Source: Acidobacteriota bacterium (GTDB lineage: Bacteria > Acidobacteriota > Vicinamibacteria > Vicinamibacterales > JAKQTR01). Taken from it: a DNA stretch of 64,000 nt. The notes below the pieces were generated by a model. It was not told the origin of the DNA and did not search any database. It was given only the letters and a program-made list of their open reading frames with translations. Position 1 is the stretch's first letter. Each line of letters opens with the position of its first letter. Below are positions 4,726 to 44,777 of this stretch, one piece after another. A program made the translations under genes and the position numbers. The stretch is taken from NCBI GenBank assembly GCA_026393755.1, contig JAPKZO010000021.1:1-64000 (forward strand), in the 5' to 3' direction.

Positions 4726-5772
4726 GTGAAGAGAAGCCTGGTCGTCCTCGCCGTTCTTGCTCTGTCTGCCACCGCCGCCTGCGGAAAGAAGGAGGCGGCC
4801 AAGCCGGCAGCCGCTCCCGCCGCCACGCCAGCCGCCGCGACCGCGCCCGCCGCTGTACCAGCGGGCGCCCCCAAGCCGGTTCCCGCTCAATTGCCAGACG
4901 TGCTCGCCAGGGTCAACGGCGAGAATGTCACACGAACAGAGCTGGAAATGGCCGTGCGGACGCTCGAACAGCGGGCCCAGAGCGCCGTGCCGCCCGAACA
5001 GCGGGACGCCGTGTACCGCCAGGTACTCGATCGCATCATCGGGTTCCACCTGCTCGCCCAGGAGGCCCATGCGCGGAAACTGGTGGCCGCGCCGTGGGAA
5101 TTGGACAAGCAGTTGGGGGATCTCAAGAAGCAGTTTCCCAACGAAGCCGCGTTCAACCAGATGCTCCAGTCTCGAGGCGTGACCGCCGAGCAGTTGCGCA
5201 AGGAGACGGAGGACACGCTGGTCGTGAATCAGATGCTGCAAAAAGAGATCGAGCCGCAGGTCAAGGTGCAGGACGGCGATCTCAAGACGTTCTACGATCA
5301 GAACAAGCCCCGCTTCCACGAGCCGGAGTCGGTGCACGCCAGCCATATCCTGATCCGCGCCGAAGAACAGGCCGACGGCGCCACCAAGGCCCGGGCCAAG
5401 GCGCAGGCGGCCGATCTTCTGTCGCAGATCAAGAAGGGCGCCAAACTTGCCGATCTTGCCAAGAAGTTCTCCCAGGATCCCGGCTCCGCGCAGAACGGCG
5501 GCGATCTCGGCTTCTTCGCCCGCGGCCAGATGGTCGCCCCGTTCGATCAGGCGGTCTTCGCCCTGAAGCCGGGCCAGATGAGCGGCGTGGTCGAGACCCC
5601 GTTCGGCTATCACATCATTCAGTCGCACGAGACCAAACCCGCGCGCGACGTCGGGTTCGACGAAGTGAAGGAACAGATTCGCGAGTACCTCGCCACTCAG
5701 CAGCGGGAACAGAAGAGCCAGGTGTTCGTGGATCAGCTGAAGGCCAAGGGCAAGATTACTGTGCTGATCTAG
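4726..5772 (+). CDS. Periplasmic peptidyl-prolyl isomerase lipoprotein (SurA/PrsA type)
   Basis: The product is 348 residues, starting at GTG 4726 with the Shine-Dalgarno sequence AGGGAG at 4715-4720. The N-terminus KRSLVVLAVLALSATAAC is a lipoprotein signal with the acylated Cys followed by a Lys/Ala/Pro-rich linker. A SurA-like N-terminal chaperone region follows (VNGENVTRTELEMAVRTLE), then a parvulin rotamase domain (VHASHILIRAEEQ ... GGDLGFFARGQMVAPF ... FGYHIIQ). Proteins of this type catalyse cis-trans prolyl isomerisation and help fold outer-membrane proteins, which fits a genome with large TonB receptors. The frame is open upstream to 4570, but that part is not protein-like. Confidence 0.92.
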   Translation: MKRSLVVLAVLALSATAACGKKEAAKPAAAPAATPAAATAPAAVPAGAPKPVPAQLPDVLARVNGENVTRTELEMAVRTLEQRAQSAVPPEQRDAVYRQVLDRIIGFHLLAQEAHARKLVAAPWELDKQLGDLKKQFPNEAAFNQMLQSRGVTAEQLRKETEDTLVVNQMLQKEIEPQVKVQDGDLKTFYDQNKPRFHEPESVHASHILIRAEEQADGATKARAKAQAADLLSQIKKGAKLADLAKKFSQDPGSAQNGGDLGFFARGQMVAPFDQAVFALKPGQMSGVVETPFGYHIIQSHETKPARDVGFDEVKEQIREYLATQQREQKSQVFVDQLKAKGKITVLI

Positions 5773-5847
5773 AATCGAAATTTGCTATTCTGTAAGTGAC
5801 AACGTCGTGTCGTGCCCATCGTGGCACTGATCTGGAGGAAACCGGTT

Positions 5848-6099
5848 ATGTCGATGTTCATCAATGAAGCCGATTGCATCAGTTGCGGCGCCTGCGAGCC
5901 CGAGTGTCCGAATGAGGCAATCACCCAGGCGGAATCTGTGTACGTTATCGCCGTCGACAAGTGCACCGAGTGCGTGGGCGCCCACGAGACCGCCAAGTGC
6001 GTCGAAGTCTGCCCGGTGGACGGCTGCGTCGTCACGGACCCCAACCACGTTGAGTCGCGTGGCGACCTCGAAGCGAAGTACGCCCGGCTCCACGGCTAG
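5848..6099 (+). CDS. 2[4Fe-4S] ferredoxin (YfhL-like)
   Basis: This 83-residue cytosolic electron carrier starts at ATG 5848 with GGAGG at 5834-5838. The first cluster motif is CISCGACEPECP (Cys-X2-Cys-X2-Cys-X3-Cys-Pro). The second is CTECVGAHETAKCVEVCP, where the insertion between the second and third cysteines is typical of YfhL/Alvin-type ferredoxins. It follows the PPIase gene by 75 bases, and a strong GC hairpin lies just after it. The redox partner is not visible in the neighbourhood. Confidence 0.93.
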   Translation: MSMFINEADCISCGACEPECPNEAITQAESVYVIAVDKCTECVGAHETAKCVEVCPVDGCVVTDPNHVESRGDLEAKYARLHG

Positions 6100-6133
6100 G
6101 CGTTCGTCGCAGTCCGCACCGCTGGATGGTGAC

Positions 6134-6155
6134 CGGGGGACCCGCGGGTCCCCCG
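6134..6155 (+). terminator. GC-rich hairpin after the ferredoxin gene
   Basis: A 10-bp perfect stem is formed by CGGGGGACCC (6134-6143) and GGGTCCCCCG (6146-6155) with only two unpaired bases. It starts 35 bases after the ferredoxin stop. There is no T-run, so if it is a terminator it is not a textbook intrinsic one. Confidence 0.45.
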
Positions 6156-6173
6156 TCCTGTGTACGCCGACAG

Positions 6174-6191
6174 ATCGCTCCCGGAGTGATT
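6174..6191. repeat. Copy of the AATCACTCC palindromic element (degenerate left arm)
   Basis: The sequence ATCGCTCC-C-GGAGTGATT matches the dispersed palindrome described at 26819, 41793 and 44753. One base of the left arm differs (G for A, leaving a G-T pair), and the right side continues as TATC like the other copies. It sits 42 bases upstream of the DUF3108 gene start. Confidence 0.75.
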
Positions 6192-6232
6192 ATCGCGGGG
6201 AGCGGCTGGTTGTGTATGATCGGGTGACACCC

Positions 6233-7123
6233 ATGGCCCACATCCACATTTCACGTCGCCTCGCGGCCTTCATCATTCTGTGCGTGGTTGCACTCGCCAG
6301 CCTCAGCGCAGCCGCTCCGGACGTCACGCAGACCAAACCAGGCACCCGGGTCGGCGCGAGGCCCCAGGGAACACAATCCCCCAGGCGCCAGCCGGCAAAG
6401 ACCACGGCCGTCCCGGTCCGGGCGCCGAAGATCGAGCGGCCCGTGCCATTCGCCGCGGGAGAGACGCTGTCGTACGACATCTCGTGGTCGATGGGCTATC
6501 TCACCGCCGGCACCGCGACACTGCGGGTGATCGACAAGCATCCTTCCTACGGATCGCTGGCGTACTACATCGTCGGTGAGGGCAGTCCGACGCCGATGCT
6601 GGCGAAGTTGTACGCCCTGTACTACAAGGCCGATTCGCTGCTCGACGCCTACACCCTCACGTCCCAGCGCGGTTCCGTCTACAGCAACGAGAACGGCAGA
6701 ACGCGGATGAAGTCGCTGCGATTCAACCCCGACGGCAGGACGGCACTCTTCGAGATGCAGACCTCCACCAACATGAAGAAGGACATCGCGGTGCCCGCGC
6801 AGTCGCAGGATGCGCTGTCTGCCCTCTTCGCGTTGCGCGCGATGCCGCTTGCGCCGGGAACGACCATCAAGATGCCGGTCTGCATCAGCGACGTCGTCTA
6901 CTACATGTCCGCGACGGTTGGCGCCAGAGAGAGCGTGAAGACGGGCCTCGGCACGCAGTCCGCGCTGAGGATCACGCCGATGGTGACTGATGCCGCGGGC
7001 AAGTCGGTCAGCCGCCCGCTGTCGCTCTGGCTCTCCGACGACGCGAAAAAGGTACCGCTCCGGTTGCAGGCGGATCTGGCTGTTGGCAGCTTCAACCTGG
7101 TCCTGAGAGAAGCGAAGTTCTAG
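6233..7123 (+). CDS. DUF3108 domain-containing exported protein
   Basis: The product is 296 residues. I chose ATG 6233 because it begins a clear signal sequence (HISRRLAAFIILCVVALASLSAAA); the upstream open frame lies inside the ferredoxin gene. After a basic, Pro-rich linker comes a DUF3108-type beta-rich domain (FAAGETLSYDISWSMGYLTAG ... ending LAVGSFNLVLREAKF). Proteins of this family are periplasmic or outer-membrane associated and of unknown function. The 3' end overlaps the converging GT2 gene by 32 bases. A copy of the palindromic repeat lies in the leader. Confidence 0.85.
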   Translation: MAHIHISRRLAAFIILCVVALASLSAAAPDVTQTKPGTRVGARPQGTQSPRRQPAKTTAVPVRAPKIERPVPFAAGETLSYDISWSMGYLTAGTATLRVIDKHPSYGSLAYYIVGEGSPTPMLAKLYALYYKADSLLDAYTLTSQRGSVYSNENGRTRMKSLRFNPDGRTALFEMQTSTNMKKDIAVPAQSQDALSALFALRAMPLAPGTTIKMPVCISDVVYYMSATVGARESVKTGLGTQSALRITPMVTDAAGKSVSRPLSLWLSDDAKKVPLRLQADLAVGSFNLVLREAKF

Positions 7124-8135
7124 CACTCCACGGCCAGCGTCCGCCGGTTGCCAGATTCACGACAGCTCCGGACCCCCAGCACAGGTGGATCGTCGCGAAC
7201 GCCGCCATCAGAGACGGCAGCAGTCTCCACTTCCCCGCTTTCCTGGCCGCATCGGCGCCCGCCAGCGCGAGCACAGCCACGTAGATCGCCAGCAGGCCCG
7301 CCAGACCCATGCGTGCGACCTGCGACACGGCGGCCAGCAGGCTGAGCCCAATCAATGCGGCGACAAAAGCGGCGGGCACGGCCTGCCGCCATCTGAGCGA
7401 TGCGGGATGCTGCCTCAACATCGCCACTTTCCACCAGCCATACCGGAAGTACTGCCGCGCCAGCGCGCCGAACGTGGCCCGTGCAAAGTACCTGGATCGG
7501 ATGGCTGGGTCGAGGATGACGCGACGGCCGCTCGCGCGGACACGATAGTTGAATTCGTAGTCTTCGTTGGTCAGAAGATCTTCGTTGAGGCCGCCAAGCT
7601 CCGTCCACAGCGTCTTCCGGTAGCAGCCGAACGGCACCGTGTCGACCTCCTGCCGCGCCGTCGTCGCATGCGCAATCCGGTACGCGGCATCCCCTGCCCC
7701 GGCCGGATGCGAACCCGCGCGCGCGATCGCCTCGGCAACCAGTGTGTCCGCTCCAGGCGCCACCTGCCATACGCCGCCGACCACGCCGGCTTCGACCCGC
7801 TCCTCGAGGGCCGAAACGGCCAGAGCGATGTACTTGGGATCAGGAATGCAGTGGCCGTCGAGCCTGACGATCACATCTCCGGTGGCTCGACCGACACCCG
7901 CATTGACCGCAGCCGGAATCGACGCCTTCACCACCGGCACGACACGCAGCGTGAGATCCGGATGATCGCGACAGTACGCGGCCACCACGTCCGCCGTCCC
8001 ATCCGAAGAACTGTCGACGATGAGAATTTCACTCGCGCCGTACGTCTGCTGCCGGATCGCGTCGAGCAGACTCGTGATGTGCGTCGCCTCGTTCCGGCTC
8101 GGCACCACGACCGAGACGCGACTGGCGTTTGTCAT
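7092..8135 (-). CDS. Glycosyltransferase family 2 with C-terminal membrane segments
   Basis: The product is 347 residues. The N-terminal GT-A fold starts VSVVVPSRNEATHITSLLDA and carries the IVDSSSDGT nucleotide-binding segment and a VRLDGHCIPD motif in the DxD position. Two or three hydrophobic segments follow at the C-terminus (FVAALIGLSLLAAVSQVA, LLAIYVAVLALAGADA), so catalysis is probably on the inner face of the membrane. The start at 8135 overlaps the upstream flippase stop as ATGA (8132-8135), so the two genes are translationally coupled. Together they suggest assembly and translocation of a glycolipid; the acceptor is unknown. Confidence 0.88.
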   Translation of the reverse strand: MTNASRVSVVVPSRNEATHITSLLDAIRQQTYGASEILIVDSSSDGTADVVAAYCRDHPDLTLRVVPVVKASIPAAVNAGVGRATGDVIVRLDGHCIPDPKYIALAVSALEERVEAGVVGGVWQVAPGADTLVAEAIARAGSHPAGAGDAAYRIAHATTARQEVDTVPFGCYRKTLWTELGGLNEDLLTNEDYEFNYRVRASGRRVILDPAIRSRYFARATFGALARQYFRYGWWKVAMLRQHPASLRWRQAVPAAFVAALIGLSLLAAVSQVARMGLAGLLAIYVAVLALAGADAARKAGKWRLLPSLMAAFATIHLCWGSGAVVNLATGGRWPWSARTSLLSGPG

Positions 8136-9124
8136 CGCCGCTTGCCTCGAATCATCGCCAGCACGTCGGGACCGATCGTCGCGTCGCGCGCGATTCTGGC
8201 CAGCAGCCACGCGCCGAGGAGGAGTTTCGGGCCGTAGGCGATCACATACAGCACCATCGAATAGGCCGCCGCCGTCGTGCGGTCCACGGAATAGAGGCCG
8301 AGCGCGAGCACGGTCAGGTACTGAAACACGCCGAGGTTGCCCGGCGTCGAGACCGGCGCGCTGCCCACCTGCAGCACCAGCAGCACCAGCAGCGCGGCCA
8401 CGGGAGGAATGGCCAGGTGGAACGCTCTGAACAGCAGGTAGTTGGTGAACGCGGAGAGCACCAGTATTACCACCGAGAGGACGAGCGCCGGGCCCAGCGT
8501 TCGGACATCACGCAACCGCACCACTTCCCCGACTGCCGCCACGCCACGGCGCGCAAACCGCGCCACGCCCTGGTGCGTGAGGGTTTCCACTTTCGCCCGG
8601 AGGAATGCCGACACGCGCGCACCCGCCAGCAGCGCCGCCACGCCGAGACCAGCGGCGATCATGCCCGCGATGGTGATGATGCGGATGGAGCCTGCAAGCC
8701 AGGGAGGGAGCGTGATCTGCAACGCGAGCCATGCGGCGGCAAGCGCGACGACGCCCGTGTCCATCAGGCGCTCGGCCACGACGGTCACGAAGGTGTGTTC
8801 GAGCGTCTGGCCCCGTGTCTTGTAGACCAGGAGCACCCGCACGAGTTCGCCGACGCGGATGGGCAGCGCGATGTTGACCGCCTGCCCGACAACCTGCGCC
8901 CGGAAGAGCACACCCAGACGCGGGGCCCCGCCGCTCTGCCGCCCGAACAGCACTTGCCAGCGCACGGTCACCAGCGCCAGCGACAGGCCGATCGAGGCGA
9001 GTGCGGCGGTCGTCCACCATGGTTCGGCCTGCCGGATCGACGCGACGAGCGCCGCGGGCGATTCGCCCCTGAACGCCAGCCACAGCGTGACCAGCCCGAT
9101 GATCGATCCGACAACAACGCGCAT
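8132..9124 (-). CDS. Flippase-like integral membrane protein (lysylphosphatidylglycerol synthase TM family)
   Basis: The product is 330 residues with about eight hydrophobic helices and no soluble catalytic domain. The N-terminus (GSIIGLVTLWLAFRG), the QVLFGRQSGGAPRLGVLFRA region and the LPIRVGELVRVLLVYK motif are typical of the UPF0104/MprF-N membrane family. In MprF this domain flips amino-acylated lipids; the solo members are of unknown substrate and often sit beside glycosyltransferases, as here. It precedes and overlaps the GT2 gene. It is divergent from the radical SAM gene across 197 bases. Confidence 0.88.
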   Translation of the reverse strand: MRVVVGSIIGLVTLWLAFRGESPAALVASIRQAEPWWTTAALASIGLSLALVTVRWQVLFGRQSGGAPRLGVLFRAQVVGQAVNIALPIRVGELVRVLLVYKTRGQTLEHTFVTVVAERLMDTGVVALAAAWLALQITLPPWLAGSIRIITIAGMIAAGLGVAALLAGARVSAFLRAKVETLTHQGVARFARRGVAAVGEVVRLRDVRTLGPALVLSVVILVLSAFTNYLLFRAFHLAIPPVAALLVLLVLQVGSAPVSTPGNLGVFQYLTVLALGLYSVDRTTAAAYSMVLYVIAYGPKLLLGAWLLARIARDATIGPDVLAMIRGKRR

Positions 9125-9321
9125 CGGTGGAAGTCTAACCTACGCCGGGCGAATGCAACCAACAGAACAGCAGGGACTTGTGTCCACCGAAGCGCTGCGC
9201 GAACGCGGGACCTCCGGCCTTGAGTGCTCGGCCCCCTCTTCGGCAGCGCGTCTCATCGGGCGTGATGGAGCCCTTTCGGCCTTCAGCGGACTCGACAAGG
9301 CGTGATATCCTGTTCGAATCG

Positions 9322-10920
9322 ATGCACAGTCTACTCATCTCGCCGCGGTTCCCGCCTACCTTCTGGTCGTACGAAGCGATTCTCAAGCTGGTCGGCAAGA
9401 AGGCGTTGATGCCTCCGCTTGGTTTGATTACGGTCGCGGCACTGCTGCCCGGCGACTGGGAATGCCGCGTCGTAGACTGCAACGTCCGTCCCGTCACCGA
9501 CGCGGAGTGGGCCTGGGCCGACATCGTGCTGCTGTCGGGCATGATCGTCCAGAAGCCGCACATGCTCGAACTGGTCGGCGAGGCGAAACGCCGCCATAAG
9601 CCGGTCGTGGTCGGCGGGCCGTATGCGACCGCGCTCCCGGACGAATTGCGCAAGGCCGGGGCCGACTTCCTCGTGCTCGACGAGGCCGAGTTGACGCTGC
9701 AGCCGTTTCTTGAAGCCCTGGCGCGGGGCGCCACAGGCGGCACCTTCACCGCAAACGGCGCGAAGCCTGACGTCACCACCACGCCGGCTCCCCGCTTCGA
9801 GCTGCTGGAACTGGCCGCCTACGACTCGATGTCCATCCAGTTCTCCCGAGGATGTCCCTTCCTGTGCGAGTTCTGCGACATCATTGTCTTGTACGGCCGG
9901 CGCCCGCGGACCAAGAAGCCCGCCCAAATGCTTGCAGAGATGGATCTGCTGTACCAAATCGGCTGGCGAGGCACGATCTTCATCGTGGACGACAACTTCG
10001 TCGGCAACCGCCAGGCGGCCAAGGAGATGCTGCGCGAATTGGTGAACTGGCAGAGCGCGCACGGCTTCCCGTTCCGTCTCGACACGGAGGCGTCAATCGA
10101 TCTCGCCCAGGACGCGGAGCTGCTCGATCTCATGGTGGCGAGCGGCTTCGGGTCGGTCTTCGTCGGCATCGAGACGCCGGACGCCGAGAGCCTGCAACGC
10201 ACGCTCAAGCATCAGAATCTCCGCCAGCCGCTCGATGAGGCGGTCGAAGCCATCACCGGATCCGGCATCCGCGTGATGGCCGGGTTCATCATCGGATTCG
10301 ACGGCGAGGCGACGGGCGCCGGAGCACGCATCGAGGAGTTCGCGGAACGCAACTCGATTCCGACGGCATTCGTCTCCATGCTGCAGGCGCTGCCCGGAAC
10401 GGCCCTGTGGGATCGACTGAGTCGCGAGGGCCGACTTCGTGCGACCACGACGGCCTCCGGCAACCAGACGTTTCTGACCAACTTCGCGCCGACGCGGCCG
10501 ATCTCGCAGGTCGCCCGGGAGTTCGTGGAGGCGTTTGAGAGGCTCTACGAACCGCGGGCGTACCTCGATCGCACGTGGCGGTACTTCCTCGCCCTGGGCG
10601 CGAAGCGGCGCGTGGCGCCGCCTGTTCGAACCGCCGCGACGCCGTTCCGGGATGTGCTGCGGTCGGCGCCAGCCCTCATCCGCATTTTCTGGCGCCAGGG
10701 TCTCGCCCGCAACACGCGCTGGAGGTTCTGGCATCACCTGGTGAGCATTGCCCGTCACAATTCGGGTGCGCTGAGCGACTACGTCACGACGTGCGCACTG
10801 AGCGAGCACTTCCTCGTATTCAGGCAACTGGTACGTCGCGATCTCGACGCGCAGTTGATGAAGATGTGCGCGTCAGAGGTGTCGCCAGCCCCTTCATCGC
10901 AGGTCGTCGTCGCTCCCTGA
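9322..10920 (+). CDS. B12-binding domain radical SAM protein, HpnP-like group
   Basis: The product is 532 residues starting at ATG 9322 (HSLLISPRFPPTFWSYE). The N-terminal third is a cobalamin-binding fold (LMPPLGLITVAALLPGDWE ... VVGGPYATALPDEL). A radical SAM domain with the [4Fe-4S] motif CPFLCEFC follows, then a C-terminal DUF4070-type region. This architecture is that of class B radical SAM methylases and the hopanoid C-2 methylase HpnP group. No squalene-hopene or other hopanoid genes are in the window, so the substrate cannot be assigned. A lipid substrate is plausible given the divergent flippase/GT2 pair. Confidence 0.88.
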   Translation: MHSLLISPRFPPTFWSYEAILKLVGKKALMPPLGLITVAALLPGDWECRVVDCNVRPVTDAEWAWADIVLLSGMIVQKPHMLELVGEAKRRHKPVVVGGPYATALPDELRKAGADFLVLDEAELTLQPFLEALARGATGGTFTANGAKPDVTTTPAPRFELLELAAYDSMSIQFSRGCPFLCEFCDIIVLYGRRPRTKKPAQMLAEMDLLYQIGWRGTIFIVDDNFVGNRQAAKEMLRELVNWQSAHGFPFRLDTEASIDLAQDAELLDLMVASGFGSVFVGIETPDAESLQRTLKHQNLRQPLDEAVEAITGSGIRVMAGFIIGFDGEATGAGARIEEFAERNSIPTAFVSMLQALPGTALWDRLSREGRLRATTTASGNQTFLTNFAPTRPISQVAREFVEAFERLYEPRAYLDRTWRYFLALGAKRRVAPPVRTAATPFRDVLRSAPALIRIFWRQGLARNTRWRFWHHLVSIARHNSGALSDYVTTCALSEHFLVFRQLVRRDLDAQLMKMCASEVSPAPSSQVVVAP

Positions 10921-11031
10921 CGTCACCCGCGGAAGGACGGCGCGATCTGCCGTGGGCAGGCCCCGGTCGAGTACTTCCTCAGGCCCTTACTCGGAAAGAG
11001 GCGCGGCATCCTGCCGGCCGTACAGAGGAAA

Positions 11032-11076
11032 GGCGGTAGGACCTGCCAGGCGATTTCCTGTTGGTCACCTACCGCC
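11032..11076 (-). terminator. Probable terminator after tRNA-Pro
   Basis: On the minus strand a 9-bp stem GGCGGTAGG/CCTACCGCC closes a 27-base loop and is followed by TTTCC. It begins 9 bases after the tRNA-Pro CCA end, so it most likely ends the merR-tRNA transcript. Confidence 0.55.
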
Positions 11077-11085
11077 TCAAGAAAC

Positions 11086-11162
11086 TGGTCGGGATGACTG
11101 GATTCGAACCAGCGACCCTCTGAACCCCATTCAGATGCGCTACCAGGCTGCGCTACATCCCG
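11086..11162 (-). tRNA. tRNA-Pro(GGG)
   Basis: This 77-nt gene encodes its CCA end. The acceptor stem CGGGATG pairs with CATCCCG. The D-arm TAGCGCAGCCTGGTAGCGCA, the anticodon stem TCTGA/TCAGA with loop ATGGGGT (anticodon GGG), and the T-arm with GGTTCGAATCC are all present. It lies 23 bases after the merR stop on the same strand. Confidence 0.96.
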
Positions 11163-11185
11163 ACGTCAACCGTTCTCAATACGCG

Positions 11186-11803
11186 TCACGCCTTTCGGCG
11201 GGCCGCTTTGCCCTTTTCTCCTTCGATCGCGACCGGCGTCTTCACGGCCGACGCATTCCCGGCCGGCGACGTCCAGGCCGGCGTCTTCGCTGCCGGCGCG
11301 CTCCCGGTCCGAACCGTCTCAGCAGGCGCCTTCCGGCCACTCGCGACTTCAGCGTCGATCCCGAGCAGCGTCGGCTGTCCAGCGCCTGTCGCTTTCCGCG
11401 GCTTCACCGCATGAACCAGCTGACCGCCCAGCATCTCCAGCAACGAGCGCAACTCGCCTTTGATCCCATCCAGCCTTCGCCTGGCGTCAGCCACCAGAAT
11501 CACCGGCTTCTGATCATCGGTCGTCACGGCGTCGCCGTCAAGTCTGCGCCGGGCGCCCGCCAGGGTCAGCCCTTCCCCATACACGAGCTGCTTGATCCGG
11601 AGCACGCGCTCGACGTCGTCCCGCCGGTAGACGCGCGGCGTGCCCGGAGATCGCGCAAAGCCCAGCGTCGGAAATTCCGACTCCCACGACCTCAGCACAT
11701 ACGGCTGCACGCTCGCGATCTCGCACACGTCGGCTGCCTTGAACAGCTCCCGATCCGGAATCTCGGCGATCGTCTCAGCCACGGTCCCCACTGACGGTTT
11801 CAA
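11186..11803 (-). CDS. MerR-family transcriptional regulator
   Basis: The frame is up to 205 residues. The winged helix-turn-helix near the N-terminus (LFKAADVCEIASVQPYVLRSWE ... RVYRRDDVERVLRIKQLVYG) is typical of MerR family DNA-binding domains. The second half (about 90-205) is a short helical region followed by a low-complexity Ala/Lys/Pro/Val-rich tail ending in GEKGKAARRKA. There is no recognisable ligand-binding domain and no cysteine pattern for metals. The frame's first codon is TTG at 11803, but a TATACT box at 11816-11811 would put transcription start there, so GTG 11791 or 11782 is the likelier start. tRNA-Pro follows on the same strand. Confidence 0.85.
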   Translation of the reverse strand: MKPSVGTVAETIAEIPDRELFKAADVCEIASVQPYVLRSWESEFPTLGFARSPGTPRVYRRDDVERVLRIKQLVYGEGLTLAGARRRLDGDAVTTDDQKPVILVADARRRLDGIKGELRSLLEMLGGQLVHAVKPRKATGAGQPTLLGIDAEVASGRKAPAETVRTGSAPAAKTPAWTSPAGNASAVKTPVAIEGEKGKAARRKA

Positions 11804-11810
11804 TGAAAAA

Positions 11811-11816
11811 AGTATA
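11811..11816 (-). promoter_or_regulatory. -10 box upstream of merR
   Basis: TATACT on the minus strand is followed by a T-run. No good -35 hexamer is seen at 16-18 bases. It bears on the choice of start codon for the MerR gene. Confidence 0.4.
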
Positions 11817-11887
11817 CCACGCCGGTTGCGACGCCACCCGCCCTGGCGCGCGGCCCGTCCTGCACCCCTGAGTCGCCGCCAGCCCCC

Positions 11888-13294
11888 TCAGCGCTTCCGC
11901 GACCGCGCCCTCACCTGAATCCGGACCGTCGTGCCCACGTACCCGAACGCCTCGCGCAGCTTGTTCACCAGAAACCGCTCATACGAGAAGTGAAACGTTG
12001 TCGCAATGTTGGTGAAGAACACAAACGTCGGCGGCGCGATGCCTACCTGTGTCGCGTAGAGGATCCGCACGGCGCGACGCCCCTTGACCACCGGAGGATT
12101 GGCGGCGGAAATCATTTCGACAAACCGGTTCAACTCGCCGGTCGGCACGCGCTTGCGCCGCGCTTCGGCCACCCGGTCGATGGTTTCGAGCAACTTGGGA
12201 AGGCGCTCGCCGGTGACGGCCGAAATGTGCAACAACGGCGCGTACTCAAGGAACTTCAGCTTCCGCTTGAGTTCGTCGTCGAACACCGCGCCCGCATCGG
12301 GCCCCTTGTCCTTCATCAAATCCCACTTGTTGACCGCGACGATCAACCCGCGTCCCGCCTTGTCCGCCTCGCCCGCAATCGTGCCGTCCTGATCGGTGGG
12401 CCCTTCGACCGCATCGAGCAGGAGCACGACGACGTCGGCGCTCACAATGGCGCGTCGCGACTGCAGCACGCTCACAGCCTCGACCGCGCCGGCCCCCGCG
12501 ACCTTGCCTGAACGTCTGATTCCGGCGGTATCAACAATTCGGAACCGCCGCTGTCTCCAGCTCAGCACGACGTCCACGGCGTCACGCGTGGTCCCTGCCA
12601 TTTCACTGACGAGCATGCGCTCCTCGCGCAGCAACCGGTTGACCAACGACGACTTGCCGACGTTCGGCCGGCCGACAATCGCGATGGCTGTTTCAATCTG
12701 TTCGTCGGCGAGGTCCCGCTCCACGTCCATATCCGATGCCTTGGCCTCCCCTGCGGCCGGCGCGGGATGTCGGGGCGTTTCTCCGCCAGGGTGACACGCG
12801 TGCGCGACAATCTGATCGAGCAGATCGCCAATGCCGTGGCCGTGCTCGGCCGAAATTTCGACAACGGGCTCGAACCCGAGCGCGTAGAACTCCAGACCGC
12901 CAGCCTTCGCCCTGTTGACGTCGCACTTGTTCAGCACGAGAACGACCGGCTTCCCGGACGATCTGAGCGCCGCGGCGATCTCCTCGTCCGCCAGCATCTT
13001 GCCGTCGGTCGCATCCACGACGAACAGCACGAGATCGGCTCCCGCAATCGCCCGGTGACCGCCAGGCGCAACCAGTGCCCGGAGCGGGTCGGCGCTGGCG
13101 CCGAACAACCCGCCAGTGTCGCAGAGTTGGAAGGTCGCGCCCTGCCACGAGACAGGCATCGCGATGACGTCCCGGGTCGTGCCGGCAATCGGCGCGACGA
13201 TGGCGCGCCGGCGACCCGCCAAGCGGTTGAACAGAGTCGACTTCCCGACGTTCGGGCGACCCACCAGGACGACGGACGGGAGCGGCCGTGGCAC
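11888..13294 (-). CDS. der: Ribosome-associated GTPase Der (EngA)
   Basis: The product is about 468 residues with two tandem GTPase domains and a C-terminal KH-like domain, needed for 50S ribosomal subunit assembly. The first G domain has GRPNVGKST, DTGGLF and NKCD; the second has GRPNVGKSS, DTAGI and NKWD. The C-terminal region ends AFGYVGTTVRIQVRARSRKR. I chose the GTG at 13294, which has AAAGGA upstream and puts VVLVGRPNVGKS at the usual distance from the start. An ATG at 13330 gives 480 residues without a visible ribosome-binding site. Confidence 0.95.
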   Translation of the reverse strand: MPRPLPSVVLVGRPNVGKSTLFNRLAGRRRAIVAPIAGTTRDVIAMPVSWQGATFQLCDTGGLFGASADPLRALVAPGGHRAIAGADLVLFVVDATDGKMLADEEIAAALRSSGKPVVLVLNKCDVNRAKAGGLEFYALGFEPVVEISAEHGHGIGDLLDQIVAHACHPGGETPRHPAPAAGEAKASDMDVERDLADEQIETAIAIVGRPNVGKSSLVNRLLREERMLVSEMAGTTRDAVDVVLSWRQRRFRIVDTAGIRRSGKVAGAGAVEAVSVLQSRRAIVSADVVVLLLDAVEGPTDQDGTIAGEADKAGRGLIVAVNKWDLMKDKGPDAGAVFDDELKRKLKFLEYAPLLHISAVTGERLPKLLETIDRVAEARRKRVPTGELNRFVEMISAANPPVVKGRRAVRILYATQVGIAPPTFVFFTNIATTFHFSYERFLVNKLREAFGYVGTTVRIQVRARSRKR

Positions 13295-13400
13295 GTGCTG
13301 TGTAATCCTTTCGCGAGGCAGGCCGATCATAGCGCGAAAGCGTCACCGGCCGAATCAATTCAAAGCCAAACCAGGCCGAGTGCCAGGCCGAACCAATTCC

Positions 13401-13429
13401 TTGACAGGCTAAGTCTATGTTTCTATGAT
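13401..13429 (+). promoter_or_regulatory. Sigma70-type promoter of the HU/IHF gene
   Basis: TTGACA (13401-13406), a 17-base spacer and TATGAT (13424-13429) form a near-consensus housekeeping promoter. It lies 35 bases before the start of the nucleoid protein gene. It is among the best promoter matches in the window, fitting strong expression. Confidence 0.8.
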
Positions 13430-13464
13430 AGTTAGCAATTGTTCAGAGAGGGAGCGCAGTCGGC

Positions 13465-13734
13465 ATGATTAAGGTGGACATCGTCGACGAGGTCGCTCGC
13501 GCGGCAAACATCACCAAGGTCAAGGCCGAAATGGCCGTTGACGCGGTGTTTGACACGATGCGGATCTCGATGCAGCGAGGCGAGCGGATAGAGCTTCGCG
13601 GGTTCGGTGTCTTCCAGGTTAAGCCCCGCAAGCGCGGTATCGGCCGTAACCCACGGACCGGTAAGGAAGTGCGGATTCCTCCGGGCCGCACGATCCGATT
13701 CAAACCCGGGAAAGAGCTTCAGGCGCTCGGCTAG
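13465..13734 (+). CDS. HU/IHF family nucleoid protein
   Basis: This 89-residue protein is the usual length for HU or IHF. The helical half (KVDIVDEVARAANITKVKAE) is followed by the beta-arm region, with ELRGFGVFQVKPRKRGIGRN, PRTGKEVRIPPGRTIRF and the KPGKELQ end. The IHF-like loop (RNPRTGKEVRIPPG) carries the minor-groove intercalating Pro. It binds and bends DNA as a dimer. AGAGGGAG lies upstream of the start. I cannot tell HU from IHF by sequence alone. Confidence 0.95.
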   Translation: MIKVDIVDEVARAANITKVKAEMAVDAVFDTMRISMQRGERIELRGFGVFQVKPRKRGIGRNPRTGKEVRIPPGRTIRFKPGKELQALG

Positions 13735-13767
13735 CCGGGGCCTGGCTTCCAGACCCTCGAGCCATTC

Positions 13768-14673
13768 GTGTCCGATTTGCAGCCCAGACCCGATCGCAAG
13801 TGGTTGAACGCGTTGCTGCTGGCAGCCACGCTCGGGACCACCACGCTCGCCGGTGCGTGCCACTGGCTCTCGTTTGAAGCGGATTTTCAGGCGAGTGCCT
13901 CCCCATTGACGGTTGGGGCCGTCGCGAATGGCCTGTGGTACTCGCTGACGATCCTCGCGATTCTCGGCGCGCACGAACTGGGGCACTACCTGGCCTGTCG
14001 CTACTACGGCATCAGCGCGTCGCTCCCCTATTTCCTGCCCATTCCATTTCCGCTGACCGGGACCGCCGGCGCCTTCATTCGGATTCGTGAGCCCATCACC
14101 ACGAAGCGGGCGCTCTTTGACATCGGGATTGCCGGTCCCCTGGCCGGGTTTGTCGTCGCCGTCCCGGCCCTCGTCATTGGCATGATGCTGTCCCGTGTGG
14201 TGGCGCTGCCGTCGGATTTTGTGGGGATGTCGCTCGGAGAACCGCTCCTGTTCAAGGCGGTAAGCTGGCTGGTCTGGGGCACGCCTCCGGAAACGATGTC
14301 GATCAACATGCACCCGATGGCCTTCGCGGCGTGGTTCGGCCTGCTGGCGACGGCGCTCAACCTGATTCCGATTGGTCAGTTCGATGGCGGACACATCGCG
14401 TACGCGGTGCTCGGACGGCATGCGCACAAGGTCACGATCGCGGCAGTGCTGTTCGCGATCGGCCTGAGTCTCTACTCGGCGTCGTGGGTCGTGTGGACGT
14501 TACTGGCGATCGGACTGCTGTTCGCGTTTGGCTGGCGCCATCCGTCGGTGTGGGACGAAACCGAACCGCTCGATTCCTCGAGGCGGTGGCTCGCGCTCCT
14601 GGCGCTGGTCATCCTCGTGCTCTGCTTCACCCCGGCTCCCATCGAGCCGCTCGATCTGATTCAACCAAAGTAG
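13768..14673 (+). CDS. Site-2 protease family (M50) membrane metalloprotease
   Basis: The product is 301 residues starting at GTG 13768. The zinc motif HELGHYL is in a transmembrane helix, and the third ligand motif is IGQFDGGHIAYAVLG (N/DPxDGG type). Hydrophobic segments are spread over the whole protein (SLTILAILGAHELGHY, FDIGIAGPLAGFVVAVPALV, WTLLAIGLLFAFGW, LALLALVILVLCF). There is no PDZ or CBS domain, so it belongs to the short EGY1-like group. Members cut membrane-spanning substrates; the target is unknown. It follows the HU gene by 33 bases. Its 3' end nearly touches that of priA. Confidence 0.9.
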   Translation: MSDLQPRPDRKWLNALLLAATLGTTTLAGACHWLSFEADFQASASPLTVGAVANGLWYSLTILAILGAHELGHYLACRYYGISASLPYFLPIPFPLTGTAGAFIRIREPITTKRALFDIGIAGPLAGFVVAVPALVIGMMLSRVVALPSDFVGMSLGEPLLFKAVSWLVWGTPPETMSINMHPMAFAAWFGLLATALNLIPIGQFDGGHIAYAVLGRHAHKVTIAAVLFAIGLSLYSASWVVWTLLAIGLLFAFGWRHPSVWDETEPLDSSRRWLALLALVILVLCFTPAPIEPLDLIQPK

Positions 14674-14680
14674 GGGGGAG

Positions 14681-17197
14681 TCAGAGCACGCTCAGCGGGT
14701 CGACGTCGACCGTGGTCTTGCGCCGAAGATCGGGGCGCGCATCGAGCGCCCGCTGCACGGCCTCACGCATCGCCCGGCGCGCGGCCGGTGCGCCCTTGAC
14801 GAAGAACTGCGCCCGATGCTCTCCCTTGAGCCGCGCCAGCGGCGCGGGGGCCGGCCCCAGCACGGTAAACGCCGAACCCGGCGCCGAGGCGGCACCGACG
14901 CGCGCCACCAGATCGGCGGCATCGGCGCTGGCTTTCGCATACGACGGCCCGCGCACCACCGCGTTGATCAGCGCGACCACCGGCGGATACCGCATCGCCC
15001 GGCGAAATTGCAGCTCGTCCTTGAAGAACGCGCCAAAATCCTGCCGGCACGCATGACGGATGCTGTAATGGTCCGGGTAGATCGTCTGAATGATCGCATC
15101 GCCCGAGATTTCGCCCCGCCCGGCGCGACCTACGACCTGTGTCAACAACTGAAACGTCCGTTCCGAGGCGCGAAAGTCCGCCAGGCCGAGGCCGACGTCG
15201 GCCGAGATCACGCCCACCAGTGTCACGCGCGGGAAGTCGTGCCCCTTCGCGATCATCTGCGTGCCGACCAGTACGTCGATCTGCCCCCTGCCGAACCGAT
15301 CGAGCAGGTCCGGAATCGCCCCGCGATGCCTGACGCTGTCGCGGTCGAGTCGCGCCACGCGTGCTTCGGGAAACGCCGCGCGCACATCCGCCTCGACCCG
15401 TTCGGTGCCGAACCCAAGCTGCTCGAGAAACGGGCCACCGCACGCCGGGCAGATCCGAGGCACCCGCGTTGAATAGTTGCAGTAGTGGCACGCCGCACCG
15501 CTCCGGCCGTGCACCACGAGCGAGACGCTGCAGTTGGGGCACTCCACCGTCCCGCCGCATTGCCGGCAGAACACGGACGTGGAATAACCCCTCCGATTCA
15601 GCAGCAGCAGCACCTGTTCCTTGCGGCTCAGCCTGCCGGCGATCGCTTCACTGAGCGCGCGGCTCAGAATGACGCCGGGGCCCACCTCGGCGAACTCGTC
15701 ACGCATGTTGATGGTGCGTACGGCAGCCAACGGCCGGTTCAGGACGCGTCGTTCGAGCGGAATCAGTTCGTACCGGCCACGCGACGCGTGCTGAAACGAC
15801 TCCATCGACGGCGTCGCCGACCCCAGCACCACCAGAGCGCCTTCCTGTTGACCGCGGACGATGGCCAGATCACGACCGTTGTATCGCGGCGAGTCCTGCT
15901 GCTTGTAAGAGCCGTCGTGCTCTTCGTCGACGACGATCAATCCGACTGACGACAACGGGGCGAAGATGGCCGAGCGCGTGCCGACGACCACGTCGATCTC
16001 GTTGCGGCGAATACGCTGCCATTGGTCGTGGCGTTCACCATCCGACAGCCCGCTGTGCTGGATCGCCACGCGGTCACCGAACCGCCGCCGGAACGCCAGA
16101 GCGGTGGCCGGCGTCAGCGCAATTTCCGGTACCAGTACGAGCGTCCGTCGCCCGGCGCGCAGCACGTGCTCCGCCAGGCGCAGGTAGAGTTCTGTCTTGC
16201 CGCTGCCGGTGACACCGTGTACGAGCGCGACCCGGAAGGCCGGCGGTGCACACAGGGCGGTCAGTCGCTCGAGCGCCGACTCCTGTTCAGTCGTCAGTTG
16301 GCGATCTGGCGCCTCGGCCGCCGCCAGTCCGTCGCCACGTCCCCATGGCCCTTCAAACGGATCGCGATCGAGGGGCACGCGGTGAATCGTGACAAGTCCT
16401 CTGGCTGCCAGGCGCCTCAGGCCGTCCGACGCCAGATGTCGATCGGCCAGCGCCGAGGTCGGCAACCCGTCCGGCGCCGACGCCAGCGCGCGCAGCGCTT
16501 CCTGCTGCCTGGGACCGAGGCCGGCGACCGGCGCCCCCGCCAACAGGCCGCGCGCGATTTCGAGCCCCTGGACCGTCGCGCGCACCACGCGGGTCGTCTT
16601 GTAGGCCTGCCGCTCCCCTTCCAGCACCTGGGCCGCCGAGATGAGACCCGCATGCTCGAGCGACCGGACCAGCGCGTTCATCGGCACCCGCGCATGGCCG
16701 CCGAGATCCTTTGCGAGGCGGCTGCGAAGCGACGACACTGGAAGCCCTCGTCCTCCAACCAGCAGGCGAAGCGCGGCATGCTGCAGCGCGGACGCTCCAC
16801 TGCCATCCGTCTCGTCGAGGCGCCGAAGGCCCGCGTCGGTCAGCGTCACGATTCGGCGGCTTTCCACCCACGCCATCGGAGGAACGGCCGCCGCGATGGC
16901 CTCGCCAGGTCCGCACGCGTAGTACTCCGACACCCACAAGGCCAGTCGGACGACCGACCCCGGCAGAAACGCGTCCTCATCCAGCACGTCGATGATGTCG
17001 CGAACTGCTCCGCTCCGCCCGCGCTCGTCGCCGTCGTCCGCCGACTCGACCGAGACCACACATCCAGTGATCGTCCTGGTGCCCAACGGCGCCAGGACGC
17101 GGCTGCCGATGGCGGGCGCATCCAGTTCTGGAGGAACGCGGTACGTGAGGAGGCCGACTGCAGGAACCGGAACCGCCACCGAGGCAAGACGCAGCAT
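14681..17197 (-). CDS. priA: Primosomal protein N' (PriA helicase)
   Basis: The product is 838 residues and restarts stalled replication forks as a 3'-5' DNA helicase. It has an N-terminal 3'-end binding domain (VPAVGLLTYRVPPEL), Walker A GVTGSGKTELY, DEEH Walker B, and an eight-Cys zinc module (CRQCGGTVECPNC, CHYC, CPACGG). The helicase C-terminal motifs ILVGTQMIAKGHDFP and GRAGRG are also present. Length and domain order are normal. It is the last gene of the minus-strand run that includes coaBC and the uracil-DNA glycosylase, six bases after the latter. Confidence 0.96.
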   Translation of the reverse strand: MLRLASVAVPVPAVGLLTYRVPPELDAPAIGSRVLAPLGTRTITGCVVSVESADDGDERGRSGAVRDIIDVLDEDAFLPGSVVRLALWVSEYYACGPGEAIAAAVPPMAWVESRRIVTLTDAGLRRLDETDGSGASALQHAALRLLVGGRGLPVSSLRSRLAKDLGGHARVPMNALVRSLEHAGLISAAQVLEGERQAYKTTRVVRATVQGLEIARGLLAGAPVAGLGPRQQEALRALASAPDGLPTSALADRHLASDGLRRLAARGLVTIHRVPLDRDPFEGPWGRGDGLAAAEAPDRQLTTEQESALERLTALCAPPAFRVALVHGVTGSGKTELYLRLAEHVLRAGRRTLVLVPEIALTPATALAFRRRFGDRVAIQHSGLSDGERHDQWQRIRRNEIDVVVGTRSAIFAPLSSVGLIVVDEEHDGSYKQQDSPRYNGRDLAIVRGQQEGALVVLGSATPSMESFQHASRGRYELIPLERRVLNRPLAAVRTINMRDEFAEVGPGVILSRALSEAIAGRLSRKEQVLLLLNRRGYSTSVFCRQCGGTVECPNCSVSLVVHGRSGAACHYCNYSTRVPRICPACGGPFLEQLGFGTERVEADVRAAFPEARVARLDRDSVRHRGAIPDLLDRFGRGQIDVLVGTQMIAKGHDFPRVTLVGVISADVGLGLADFRASERTFQLLTQVVGRAGRGEISGDAIIQTIYPDHYSIRHACRQDFGAFFKDELQFRRAMRYPPVVALINAVVRGPSYAKASADAADLVARVGAASAPGSAFTVLGPAPAPLARLKGEHRAQFFVKGAPAARRAMREAVQRALDARPDLRRKTTVDVDPLSVL

Positions 17198-25108: not shown

Positions 25109-26278
25109 ATGTTGCGGCTCTTTCTTGACTACCGACCGGCGTTGACGGCACCCACCGGGGTCGGCGCGTGGATCCACGAGCTGATCCGGGCGCTCCTCGC
25201 GCTCAAAGCGGCCGGAGAGCCGGTTGCCAAAGGCCTCGAAATCACTGTCTTTTCGAGTTCGCTGCGCGATCGGCTGGCCGGATCGGCCATCGGGGAACTG
25301 GCGGGCGTAAGGCCGGTTGATTGGCGCCTGCCCGTCCGCGCGCTCAACCTGGCGTGGTATCGGCTGGGCTGGCCGCCAGTGGAATCGCTGGCGAAGGGCC
25401 CCTTTGACGTCGTTCATTCGTCCACGCCGGTGCTGCTGCCCTCACGGTCGGGTCTCCGGGTATCGACCATCCACGATCTTGATTTCCTTCATCAACCCGG
25501 CCGCACCTGGGGCGAAATGCGGCGGGATTTTCCGCGGCTGGCTGGCGATCACTCCCGCAGAGCCGATCTGGTTGTGACCGTCTCAAACCACACCGCCCGC
25601 GGCATCAGTCGAGAACTCGGTGTGTCCGACGGCAATATCGCTATCTGCAGGCACGGTGTCCCCTACTGGGTCACGTCTCTGGCCACCCCGCCGGAGCCGC
25701 GATCCGGGGGCTACATCCTCTTTGTCGGCACGCTCGAACCGAGAAAGAACGTGGGCGGCCTGCTCGACGCCTACCAACGGCTGCTGTCGCGCTGGCCGGA
25801 CGCTCCTCGGCTGGTCCTGGCCGGACGCGAAACGCCCGCGGCCCGGGCGTGGATCGAACGCGCCACGGGGCCTGTCTTCAAAGGGAAGGTCGACGTACGC
25901 GGGTACATCGCTGACCGCGACCGCGTCTCCACGTACCTTGGGGCTGCCGTCCTCGTGTTGCCGTCGTTTGACGAAGGATTCGGCCTGCCGGCCCTCGAGG
26001 CGATGGCCCTTGGCATCCCGGTGATCGCATCCAATCGCGGGGCGCTCCCGGAAGTGGTCGGTGACGCCGGCCTCCTGACTGAGCCAGAGGATGCCGATGG
26101 CATCGCTGAGGCGCTTCGTCGCCTCCTCACCGAGCCCGGACTCCACCGTGCCTGTCGAGAAGCGGGTCTGATGAGGGCGCGCACATTCAGCTGGAGCGAC
26201 TCGGCGAGGGCACTCCTGCAGCACTATCTGACGGCCCTGGCTCGGCAACCGCGGACCGAAGGTCAGGGGGCCCGGTGA
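25109..26278 (+). CDS. Glycosyltransferase family 4
   Basis: The product is 389 residues with a GT-B fold. The N-terminal acceptor domain starts LRLFLDYRPALTAPTGVGAW. The C-terminal donor domain has LFVGTLEPRKNVGGLLDAY and the EX7E-type motif DEGFGLPALEAMALG, which contacts the nucleotide-sugar. It is a retaining transferase of unknown sugar specificity. It is the first gene of the plus-strand cluster, and its stop overlaps the next start as TGATG. Confidence 0.9.
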   Translation: MLRLFLDYRPALTAPTGVGAWIHELIRALLALKAAGEPVAKGLEITVFSSSLRDRLAGSAIGELAGVRPVDWRLPVRALNLAWYRLGWPPVESLAKGPFDVVHSSTPVLLPSRSGLRVSTIHDLDFLHQPGRTWGEMRRDFPRLAGDHSRRADLVVTVSNHTARGISRELGVSDGNIAICRHGVPYWVTSLATPPEPRSGGYILFVGTLEPRKNVGGLLDAYQRLLSRWPDAPRLVLAGRETPAARAWIERATGPVFKGKVDVRGYIADRDRVSTYLGAAVLVLPSFDEGFGLPALEAMALGIPVIASNRGALPEVVGDAGLLTEPEDADGIAEALRRLLTEPGLHRACREAGLMRARTFSWSDSARALLQHYLTALARQPRTEGQGAR

Positions 26279-27501
26279 TGCGGATTGGGATCGACAGCCG
26301 CGAGTTGCTGGGACGGCCGACCGGCGTTGGCCGGTACCTCCTGCACCTGCTTGCCGAATGGGCCGCGCTCGCCCGCGATGGCGGGTTTCCCCACCAGATT
26401 GTGCTGTACGCGCCGGCGGAGTGCCCGCCAGACGCCGCGGCCGCAATCGCTCCTCTGGCACCGGAGTGCCGGATTGTCCGCGGTTCGGCTGGCACGTGGT
26501 GGGAACAGGTCCAGCTCCCTCCGCCTGCGGCACGGGACCGCCTCGACGTCTTGTTTGCGCCGGCGTACACGGCGCCGCTCAGGATGGCATGCCCGGTCGT
26601 TCAGACCATCCACGACCTGTCATTTCTCGCGCACCCGGAGTGGTTTTCGCGCCGCGAACGGTTGCGGCGATCCTGGGTCACACGCGCCTCAGCCCGGCGC
26701 GCACGAACCGTGCTGACGGTGTCGCGCTTCTCCGCGAGCGAGATCCGCGACCGTCTGGGGATTCCTGACGACCGGATTCGCGTCATCCCTCACGGTCTCA
26801 CGACTCCCGGCGGGGGAATAATCACTCCCGGAGTGATTAGCTCGGCCGTAATCACTCCGGGAGTAATTAGCCGGGGGGGAATCACTCCGGGAGTAATTAG
26901 TCCGGGAGTAATCACTCCGGGAGTGATTGTTCCATCCGGCTGGCCGACATTCGGCGAACGCCCGCCGGTCGTTCTGTACGTGGGGTCGATATTCAATCGA
27001 CGTCACGTGCCCGATCTGATCACCGCCTTTGCGGCAGTCGCCGCGACTGTCCCGGGTGCGCGCCTCGAAATCGTCGGCGAGAACCGCACGTATCCGCCTC
27101 AAGATCTCGCTGGCCTTTGCCGGACGCTGGGCATCGCGGATCGCGTCAACATCCGGGCGTACGTCGGAGACGCCGAACTGGCGGGATTGTACCGTTCGGC
27201 CCGCGTGTTTGCGTTTCTCTCGGAATACGAAGGGTTCGGGCTGACGCCGCTCGAAGCGCTCAGCTGCGGGATCCCCGTTGTCGTGCTCGACACCCCCGCG
27301 GCGCGGGAGACGTGCGGGCCCGCCGCCTCCTACGTCGGCGCCGGTGATACGCGAGCGGTGACGGCACAGTTGAGGACACTTCTGACTGACGCCTACGCTC
27401 ACCAGGAGGCACTTCGGCCGGCGGCCGGCGTGCTGAGCCGGTACAGCTGGCCCGATGCCGCTCGCAAGACGCTCGAAGCGCTCGAAGGAGCCGCGCGCTG
27501 A
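26278..27501 (+). CDS. Glycosyltransferase family 4 with an in-frame palindrome-derived repeat insert
   Basis: The product is 407 residues with a GT-B fold. The N-terminal domain starts RIGIDSRELLGRPTGVGRYL and runs to RIRVIPHGL. The C-terminal domain resumes at PPVVLYVGSIFNRRHVPDLI and has EYEGFGLTPLEALSCG. Between the two domains, at the linker, lies an insert of about 40 residues made of repeated ITPGVI units. It is encoded by five copies of the dispersed palindrome at 26819-26929. All spacings are multiples of three and the frame is intact, so the gene is probably functional. The start is ATG 26278 (TGATG overlap); a GTG one codon earlier is possible. Confidence 0.9.
   Translation: MRIGIDSRELLGRPTGVGRYLLHLLAEWAALARDGGFPHQIVLYAPAECPPDAAAAIAPLAPECRIVRGSAGTWWEQVQLPPPAARDRLDVLFAPAYTAPLRMACPVVQTIHDLSFLAHPEWFSRRERLRRSWVTRASARRARTVLTVSRFSASEIRDRLGIPDDRIRVIPHGLTTPGGGIITPGVISSAVITPGVISRGGITPGVISPGVITPGVIVPSGWPTFGERPPVVLYVGSIFNRRHVPDLITAFAAVAATVPGARLEIVGENRTYPPQDLAGLCRTLGIADRVNIRAYVGDAELAGLYRSARVFAFLSEYEGFGLTPLEALSCGIPVVVLDTPAARETCGPAASYVGAGDTRAVTAQLRTLLTDAYAHQEALRPAAGVLSRYSWPDAARKTLEALEGAAR
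26819..26929. repeat. Array of five palindromic elements inside the glycosyltransferase gene
   Basis: Copies are centred at about 26829, 26859, 26889, 26904 and 26919. The first is a perfect 21-bp palindrome (arms TAATCACTCC and GGAGTGATTA around a central C). Copies two and three have a GGAGTAATT right arm, copy four is degenerate (ATTAGTCC) and copy five is near perfect. Start-to-start spacing is 30 bases, with copy four at half spacing. In the gene's frame each unit reads ITPGVI, and because of the symmetry the opposite strand reads the same motif. Confidence 0.95.
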
Positions 27502-40728: not shown

Positions 40729-41796
40729 ATGCGAGTTGTGGTGGCGATGTCGGGCGGCGTGGATTCTTCGGTGGCGGCTGCCCTGCTGGTCGACGCGGGC
40801 CACGACGTGGTCGGCGTGTCGATGCAACTCTACGATCAGGAGCAGGGCGACGCCCGGTTTGGCACCTGCTGCACGATTGACGACCTTCACGACGCGCGCC
40901 GCGTGGCAGCCGTCCTCGGCATCCCTCACTACATCCTCAATCTCGAACGCGAGTTCGATGATGTGGTGATCGGGGATTTTGTCCGCGAATACGCTGCCGG
41001 CCGCACGCCGATTCCGTGTGCCCATTGCAACAACGAGTTGAAGTTCACCGCCCTGGTCGAAAAGGCGTCCGGATTTGGCGCCGAGATGGTCGCCACCGGA
41101 CACTACGCGCGCGTCACCACCACAGAGGGCGGCCTGTGCCACTTGTGGCGCGGTCTCGACGACACCAAGGACCAGGCGTACTTCCTGTTCGGCCTCACCC
41201 AGGCGCAGTTGCGAAGCGCCCTGTTTCCCGTCGGCGAGATGCGCAAGATCGATGTGCGGGCGGTCGCGAGAATGCGGGGCCTTCCGGTCTCCGACAAGCC
41301 CGATAGCCAGGAGATCTGTTTTGTGCCCGACGATAACTACGCGGCGGTCGTCGAGCGGCGGCTTCACGGCGACCTCTCTGGTGCCATCGTCGATCTGGCC
41401 GGGGCGGTTGTCGGCCGACACGAGGGTGTGCATCGGTTCACGGTCGGGCAGCGGAAGGGGCTGGGCGTGGCCTTGGGCGAACCGGCTTATGTCGTGAGGC
41501 TTGACGCCGGGCGAAAGCTGGTCGTCGTCGGACCCCGGTCCGCGCTCGAGCGCGACTTGCTCACCGCGTCGCGCGTCAACTGGATTGCCGGCGAAACGCC
41601 GCGCGGTTCCATTCGCGTGACCGCGCAGATCCGTCACCGTCACGCACCCGCCGAGGCCACCATCACGCCAATCGGCAACGACCGGGTCAACGTGACATTC
41701 GACAGTGCGCAGTCCGCCATTACGCCTGGCCAAGCGGTCGTCTTCTTCGATCGGGACGAAGTGCTCGGGGGCGGCTGGATCGACTCCGGCGGCTAA
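40729..41796 (+). CDS. mnmA: tRNA-specific 2-thiouridylase MnmA
   Basis: The product is 355 residues and makes the 2-thiouridine at U34 of Glu, Gln and Lys tRNAs. It has the PP-loop [10 protein letters not shown], the catalytic Cys in [27 protein letters not shown] and DSQEICFV (second catalytic Cys). I chose ATG 40729; a GTG at 40717 overlapping the desulfurase stop (GTGA) is an equal alternative. Its stop codon TAA (41794-41796) lies inside a copy of the dispersed palindrome. tRNA-Lys(TTT) and tRNA-Glu(TTC) in this window are its expected substrates. Confidence 0.95.
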
Positions 41797-41815
41797 TCAC
41801 TCCCGGAGTGATTAG
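41793..41815. repeat. Palindromic element overlapping the mnmA stop codon
   Basis: This is a 23-bp perfect palindrome with arms CTAATCACTCC and GGAGTGATTAG around a central C at 41804. The TAA in the left arm is the mnmA stop codon. It is a copy of the element found at 6174, 26819, 41833 and 44753. Confidence 0.95.
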
Positions 41816-41832: not shown

Positions 41833-41853
41833 TAGTCAATCCGGGAGTGATTA
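41833..41853. repeat. Palindromic element overlapping the trxB stop codon
   Basis: The left arm TAGTCAATCC is degenerate and the right arm GGAGTGATTA is exact, around a central G at 41843. On the minus strand the right arm supplies TAA, the trxB stop codon (41851-41853). It is 40 bases from the mnmA copy, start to start. Confidence 0.9.
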
Positions 41854-44752: not shown

Positions 44753-44777
44753 GATAATCACTCCGGGAGTGATTATC
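44753..44777. repeat. Palindromic element upstream of glgA and the sulfatase-like gene
   Basis: This is the longest perfect copy, 25 bp: arms GATAATCACTCC and GGAGTGATTATC around a central G at 44765. It lies 33 bases upstream of the glgA start and 91 upstream of the sulfatase-like gene, so it could affect either leader. Confidence 0.95.

Follow-up and report, generated by a model that had tools for sequence, protein, structure and literature searches.

An array of short palindromes inside a glycosyltransferase gene of an Acidobacteriota bacterium is best explained as an intragenic cluster of an acidobacterial REP/REPIN-like palindrome family, seeded once at this site and subsequently expanded in place. 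We put the probability of this explanation as a whole at about 0.82. As part of it, the disordered linker of the GT4-family enzyme would have become longer by about 32 residues, an extension that the protein appears to tolerate and that is presumably neutral.

The array lies in a stretch of 64,000 nucleotides, henceforth referred to as the window. Its copies follow the consensus AATYACTCC(S)GGAGTRATT, i.e. AATCACTCC(C/G)GGAGT(G/A)ATT, at 30-nt steps. A preliminary description of this DNA had listed five copies, one of them at a 15-base spacing, and we recovered them as four exact units plus one copy with two mismatches; the symmetry of the palindrome, by which both strands read the same motif, was confirmed as well. 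With up to three mismatches allowed, the window contains nine matches against 0.01 expected from shuffles (a search with a first motif guess, ATTACACCTGGTGTAAT, gave no matches). The central bases of the four exact units read C G G G, and all steps between them measure 30 nt, so that the frame is kept. Two further sites in the window carry solo units of the same family. At the first of these, the TAA of the unit is the stop codon of the gene on its left, and the congener has no unit at the matching place.

Palindrome units and their host gene in the window (positions of the forward strand; a dot marks features given without a strand).
Feature	Position	Strand	Details
GT4-family glycosyltransferase ORF, array host	26275..27501	+	408 aa; ORF, Pfam, dN/dS
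In-frame palindrome array, repeated ITPGVI segments	26819..26929	.	4 exact and 1 degenerate copies
Unit 1, AATCACTCCCGGAGTGATT	26820..26838	.	exact match, centre C
Unit 2, AATCACTCCGGGAGTAATT	26850..26868	.	exact match, centre G
Unit 3, AATCACTCCGGGAGTAATT	26880..26898	.	exact match, centre G
Degenerate unit	26895..26913	.	2 mismatches, overlaps units 3 and 4, 15-base offset
Unit 4, AATCACTCCGGGAGTGATT	26910..26928	.	centre G; also aligns with the congener single unit AACCACTCCCGGAGTGATT
Solo unit of the same family	41795..41813	.	between convergent mnmA-like and trxB-like genes
Degenerate second unit	41834..41852	.	2 mismatches
Solo unit	44756..44774	.	between divergent genes, glgA-like on the left

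The reading frame of the host gene is uninterrupted across the array and encodes ITPGVI again and again, as had been claimed. Pfam places the N-terminal domain (PF13439) at residues 16–175 and the C-terminal domain (PF00534 and PF13692) at residues of about 227–380. In an AlphaFold model, pLDDT falls below 50 at residues 174–227, between the last strand of the N-terminal domain (168–170) and the first strand of the C-terminal domain (232–236). The alignment behind the model consisted of the GT4 proteins encoded in the window itself; mean pLDDT is 65, and we have therefore taken from the model the overall layout alone. Domain bounds and predicted disorder thus agree with the proposal that the array sits at the linker between two intact glycosyltransferase domains, both of which are kept in the orthologue of a congener too. 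With the array left out, dN/dS for this orthologous pair is 0.17; judged by its sequence, the gene looks intact and under purifying selection and the enzyme still looks functional. An earlier assertion that two of the three frames of the palindrome are open holds for the 19-bp core and fails once the usual flanking T and A are included: one frame then contains TAA and TGA stops, TAA or TAG may close a second, and the ITPGVI frame is left as the sole safe one.

The palindrome is dispersed over the whole genome. Counted over both strands, exact copies of AATNACTCCGGGAGTNATT number 91, whereas a backward control pattern has no match. Stretches around all 91 copies were fetched for locus statistics, with loci counted at up to four mismatches and genes predicted by a simple codon-usage gene caller. 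Among the resulting 54 loci, 21 lie between tandem, 20 between divergent and 11 between convergent genes, and two are inside a gene. As expected of REPs, the family is thus short, high-copy, dispersed and mostly extragenic (52 of the 54 loci lie between genes or at their ends). One of the two in-gene loci, L024:4700, is a four-mismatch match; the other is the glycosyltransferase array, the sole multi-unit array inside a gene in this sample. In about a dozen cases the stop codon of a gene falls inside the element, e.g. the TAA of TAATCACTCC. The neighbouring genes, which from their sequences we take to be dnaB, radA, purC, truA, dnaA, dnaX, mnmA and others, are unrelated housekeeping genes.

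The orthologous glycosyltransferase of the congener is 79–82% identical to the one described here and lacks query residues 181–212. In its linker there is just one unit, AACCACTCCCGGAGTGATTG, with GTTCC as its right flank, as in the window. BLAST matches this unit to the first unit of the array and also to the last; the flanks on either side are collinear between the two species over kilobases. A homologue free of the ITPGVI block had been named as the sign of insertion, and apart from the congener none of the aligned glycosyltransferase homologues from the order carries the motif. Given one unit in the congener and none in these other homologues, the unit probably entered before the split from the congener and the array grew afterwards; judged from two genomes, growth here would be the likelier direction than loss of units in the congener.

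We extended the cross-species comparison to 10 loci, the glycosyltransferase included, using both flanks and the fetched part of the congener (about 1.2 Mb of its 3.3 Mb was compared systematically). Besides the glycosyltransferase, the unit is also present in the congener at only one of these loci, next to a carboxylase gene (L038). Three sites are cleanly empty (L008, L020 and L029:5881) and five have diverged spacers without the unit. The family has therefore moved or grown since the two species separated. The suggestion that a mobile sequence adds peptide to the enzyme is supported by this dispersal and by the empty sites, with the correction that the recent event was probably expansion in place and not the original insertion.

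The same comparison bears on the foremost alternative, namely that a chance palindromic codon run was duplicated locally by replication slippage with no mobility at all. The contrast of one unit in the congener with four here at the same place is what it predicts, as is the relatedness of the spacers to one another (GC.CGG...G). Yet it leaves unexplained why 91 copies of the same 19-mer are dispersed over unrelated intergenic sites, and the congener's only unit at this place is identical to a variant, AACCACTCCCGGAGTGATT, that is dispersed in that species (e.g. L168:3792 and L170:2606). We consider slippage improbable as the whole story, although it is likely as the mode of array growth after seeding.

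The arrays of this family are built by a regular grammar. When no more than two mismatches per unit are allowed, 39 of 43 neighbouring pairs are spaced by 29 or 30 nt. Two kinds of spacer occur: one is a conserved CAGTTTTG/CAAAACTG-like step of 29 nt, and the other comprises GC-rich steps, for the most part 30 nt long, which are alike within one array. In 24 of 25 arrays the central bases run C..C and then G..G (permutation mean 14.4, maximum 23 in 20,000), and each array is therefore one large inverted repeat. Inverted orientation, regular spacing and hairpin doublets or clusters are the marks of REPINs and BIMEs, and the family shows them. Solo units make up 31 of 56 runs. In the 112 outer flanks of units, the sole conserved position is −1, a pyrimidine; units are not flanked by a GTAG or CGTC tag, which places the family outside the GTAG-REPs and CGTC-REPs. 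About half of the steps outside the glycosyltransferase gene are multiples of three, so the three 30-nt steps within it are no strong proof of frame selection, with which they are nonetheless consistent.

REPs are typically linked to RAYTs, the IS200-like REP-associated tyrosine transposases (TnpA-REP). Searches of the window's assembly with PF01797, with NF047646 and with the RAYT protein of the genome G004, described below, detected no Y1/RAYT gene; the gene may lie in an assembly gap. The congener has two RAYTs, neither with a palindrome unit within several kilobases. One association comes from a genome of the same family (G004), in which a Y1 protein (L183:952-1710, minus strand; PF01797, E 4e-11) has on either side AACCTCTCCGGGAGAGGTT palindromes that share the CTCC-S-GGAG core with the window family. 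Its best NCBIfam match is REP_Tyr_transpos, at 67.7 bits and below the curated cut-off of 80. The sister palindrome is present in 104 copies in that genome, with the C-then-G order of centres in 36 of 37 clusters. In another genome of the order (G034), which has palindrome matches at 4407 and 8480 of one contig, the C-terminal part of a homologue of the same RAYT (E 2.5e-11) begins at a contig end; the 3' end of this fragment is 35 nt from AATTACTCCCGGAGTGATT, an exact unit of the window's palindrome family. In view of these associations in relatives the window palindrome is probably a REP/REPIN-type family, one that lacks the GTAG and CGTC tags, and from them we infer that a RAYT moved the family in the window's genome as well. 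As a separate observation, the last residues of the transposase at L183:952-1710 are encoded by one of its own palindromes, ACCTCTCCCGGAGAGGT, at 975–991.

A near-perfect palindrome of 19–21 bp could also be the operator of a dimeric transcription factor, with the arrays as multi-site operators and the glycosyltransferase copy as an intragenic regulatory site. The frequent divergent-gene setting (20 of 54 loci) and the regular spacing of about 30 nt are in keeping with such a role. We disfavour it because the flanking genes are unrelated housekeeping genes without a common function; units are found in convergent intergenic regions and overlapping stop codons as well, the orthologous genes of the congener mostly lack sites, and the sister sequence flanks a transposase and is itself highly repeated. 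Gene content and orientation at the 54 loci led us to reject the operator hypothesis, which we regard as quite unlikely. A misassembly of dispersed repeats that inflated or invented the in-gene array is the least probable reading of all, the unit being repeated across a 42-contig draft assembly but the array being only about 110 nt long, a length that ordinary reads can span, with its frame intact through four units, its flanks collinear with the congener and a unit at the same site in that independent assembly.

How the proposed REP/REPIN-like cluster arose may be pictured as follows. The family, a palindrome of 19–21 bp with the CTCC-S-GGAG core, would have spread between genes as solo units, inverted doublets and arrays of 29/30-nt steps, with an IS200-like RAYT, acting in trans on single-stranded hairpins, as its most likely mobiliser. 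Before the species and its congener diverged, a single unit would have landed in the GT4 linker in the stop-free ITPGVI frame. In the present species this unit would then have been copied in place, in frame-keeping steps of 30 nt, to give four and a half units, by slippage or by RAYT action.

REPs, BIMEs and REPINs are short, mostly extragenic palindromes that form regular clusters in inverted order and are linked to RAYTs (PMC2817692; PMC3116915; PMC8266576). REPs inside ORFs, clusters that encode 43–82 residues and REPs that supply stop codons have also been described (Di Nocera 2013, PMC3733652). The family reported here resembles the REP/BIME and RAYT systems in being a high-copy short palindrome that is mostly intergenic, near gene 3' ends, that supplies stop codons and that forms regular clusters, in one case inside an ORF (Nunvar 2010, PMC2817692; PMC3733652; PMC8266576), and in a genome of the same family an IS200-like transposase has the sister palindrome on its flanks. 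It differs in having no GTAG/CGTC tag, no RAYT found in its own assembly and a unit so nearly self-symmetric that orientation is visible in the central base only. With REPINs it shares inverted doublets that form one long hairpin, ordered tandem clusters and solo units, although the latter are common here and units are spaced by 29/30 nt, the spacing in P. fluorescens SBW25 being 71 or 110 bp (Bertels and Rainey 2011, PMC3116915).

The preliminary description had likened the array to Rickettsia palindromic elements, the classic case of in-frame insertion (PMC10969869), of which RPE-4 and RPE-6 are treated in PMC3733652. The likeness stands for the array itself, where palindromic DNA adds peptide in frame to an unrelated enzyme that stays intact and is retained. 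It does not extend to the family. Rickettsia elements are often found in genes (nearly half of them in R. conorii), reach about 150 bp and encode a conserved peptide (PMC10969869; PMC3733652), whereas here the unit is 19–21 bp long, one of 54 loci is truly intragenic, and neither homology to these elements nor a frequent intragenic location was seen in the window family. Being overwhelmingly intergenic, the family is closer to REP/REPIN. Since REPs in ORFs and in-frame Rickettsia elements were reported earlier, the present case is a well-resolved variant of the REP/REPIN kind, tagless and lineage-restricted, with one intragenic cluster; there are precedents for REP clusters that lie in frame within genes.

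What the case adds is that intragenic REP clusters are known mostly from catalogues, and here the history can be read between two congeneric species, in a series that goes from none in distant homologues to one in the congener to four in the window, all in the sole safe frame. It also adds an acidobacterial order to the groups with RAYT-associated REP-type repeats and suggests that not all such systems have the GTAG/CGTC tag, and the ordered C-then-G grammar is a constraint that models of REP cluster growth must explain. More speculatively, a RAYT subgroup of this order might recognise the CTCC-S-GGAG palindrome alone, with arrays always growing outwards from the C|G switch point, so that the central base would record the direction of each copying event. 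We hold this tagless system to be a tentative proposal, rather less probable than not; if it were true, the glycosyltransferase array would show a transposase in the act of extending an enzyme linker by a tandem repeat.

The distribution of the palindrome is narrow. It was found in three of 162 genomes of the wider order, and among 84,980 species genomes one acidobacterium alone had several copies of the exact 19-mer pattern, which was present in no Rickettsia of that set. A search of viral contigs for the palindrome returned one stray match. No target-site duplications were seen by eye around the arrays.

Several minor observations were made along the way. At L027 (G000:C28:287000-306900, 3566-16450) there is a 13-kb island of toxin-antitoxin-like modules with a cassette-like look, which from their sequences we take to be Phd/RelE-, MntA/HepT- and PIN-type modules and DUF4143-like ATPases. 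The palindrome separates nearly every module (12 loci, 0.5–1.8 kb apart), and diverged 185-nt repeats lie at 5389, 8794 and 10382. Because of the cassette-like spacing an integron-like reading was considered; it was disfavoured, judging by the repeat itself, which is present at dozens of unrelated loci and carries no known attC features. Two loci without relation to each other (L020:2569-2626 and L035:2549-2606) share a AATTACTCCCGGAGTAATTGTTCCCGAACGTTCGGGAACAATCACTCCGGGAGTGATT-like composite of 58 bp, which is missing from the L020 site in the congener. In a folding computation, the RNA of the glycosyltransferase array (window 26800–26945) forms a single hairpin that is predicted to be very stable (−88 kcal/mol, z −8.25) and would lie midway along the coding part of the mRNA. 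Finally, two near-perfect tandem repeats lie near tRNA genes of the window, one at 62894–63111 (92-bp unit, 2.4 copies) and the other at 60566–60669 (45-bp unit, 2.3 copies).
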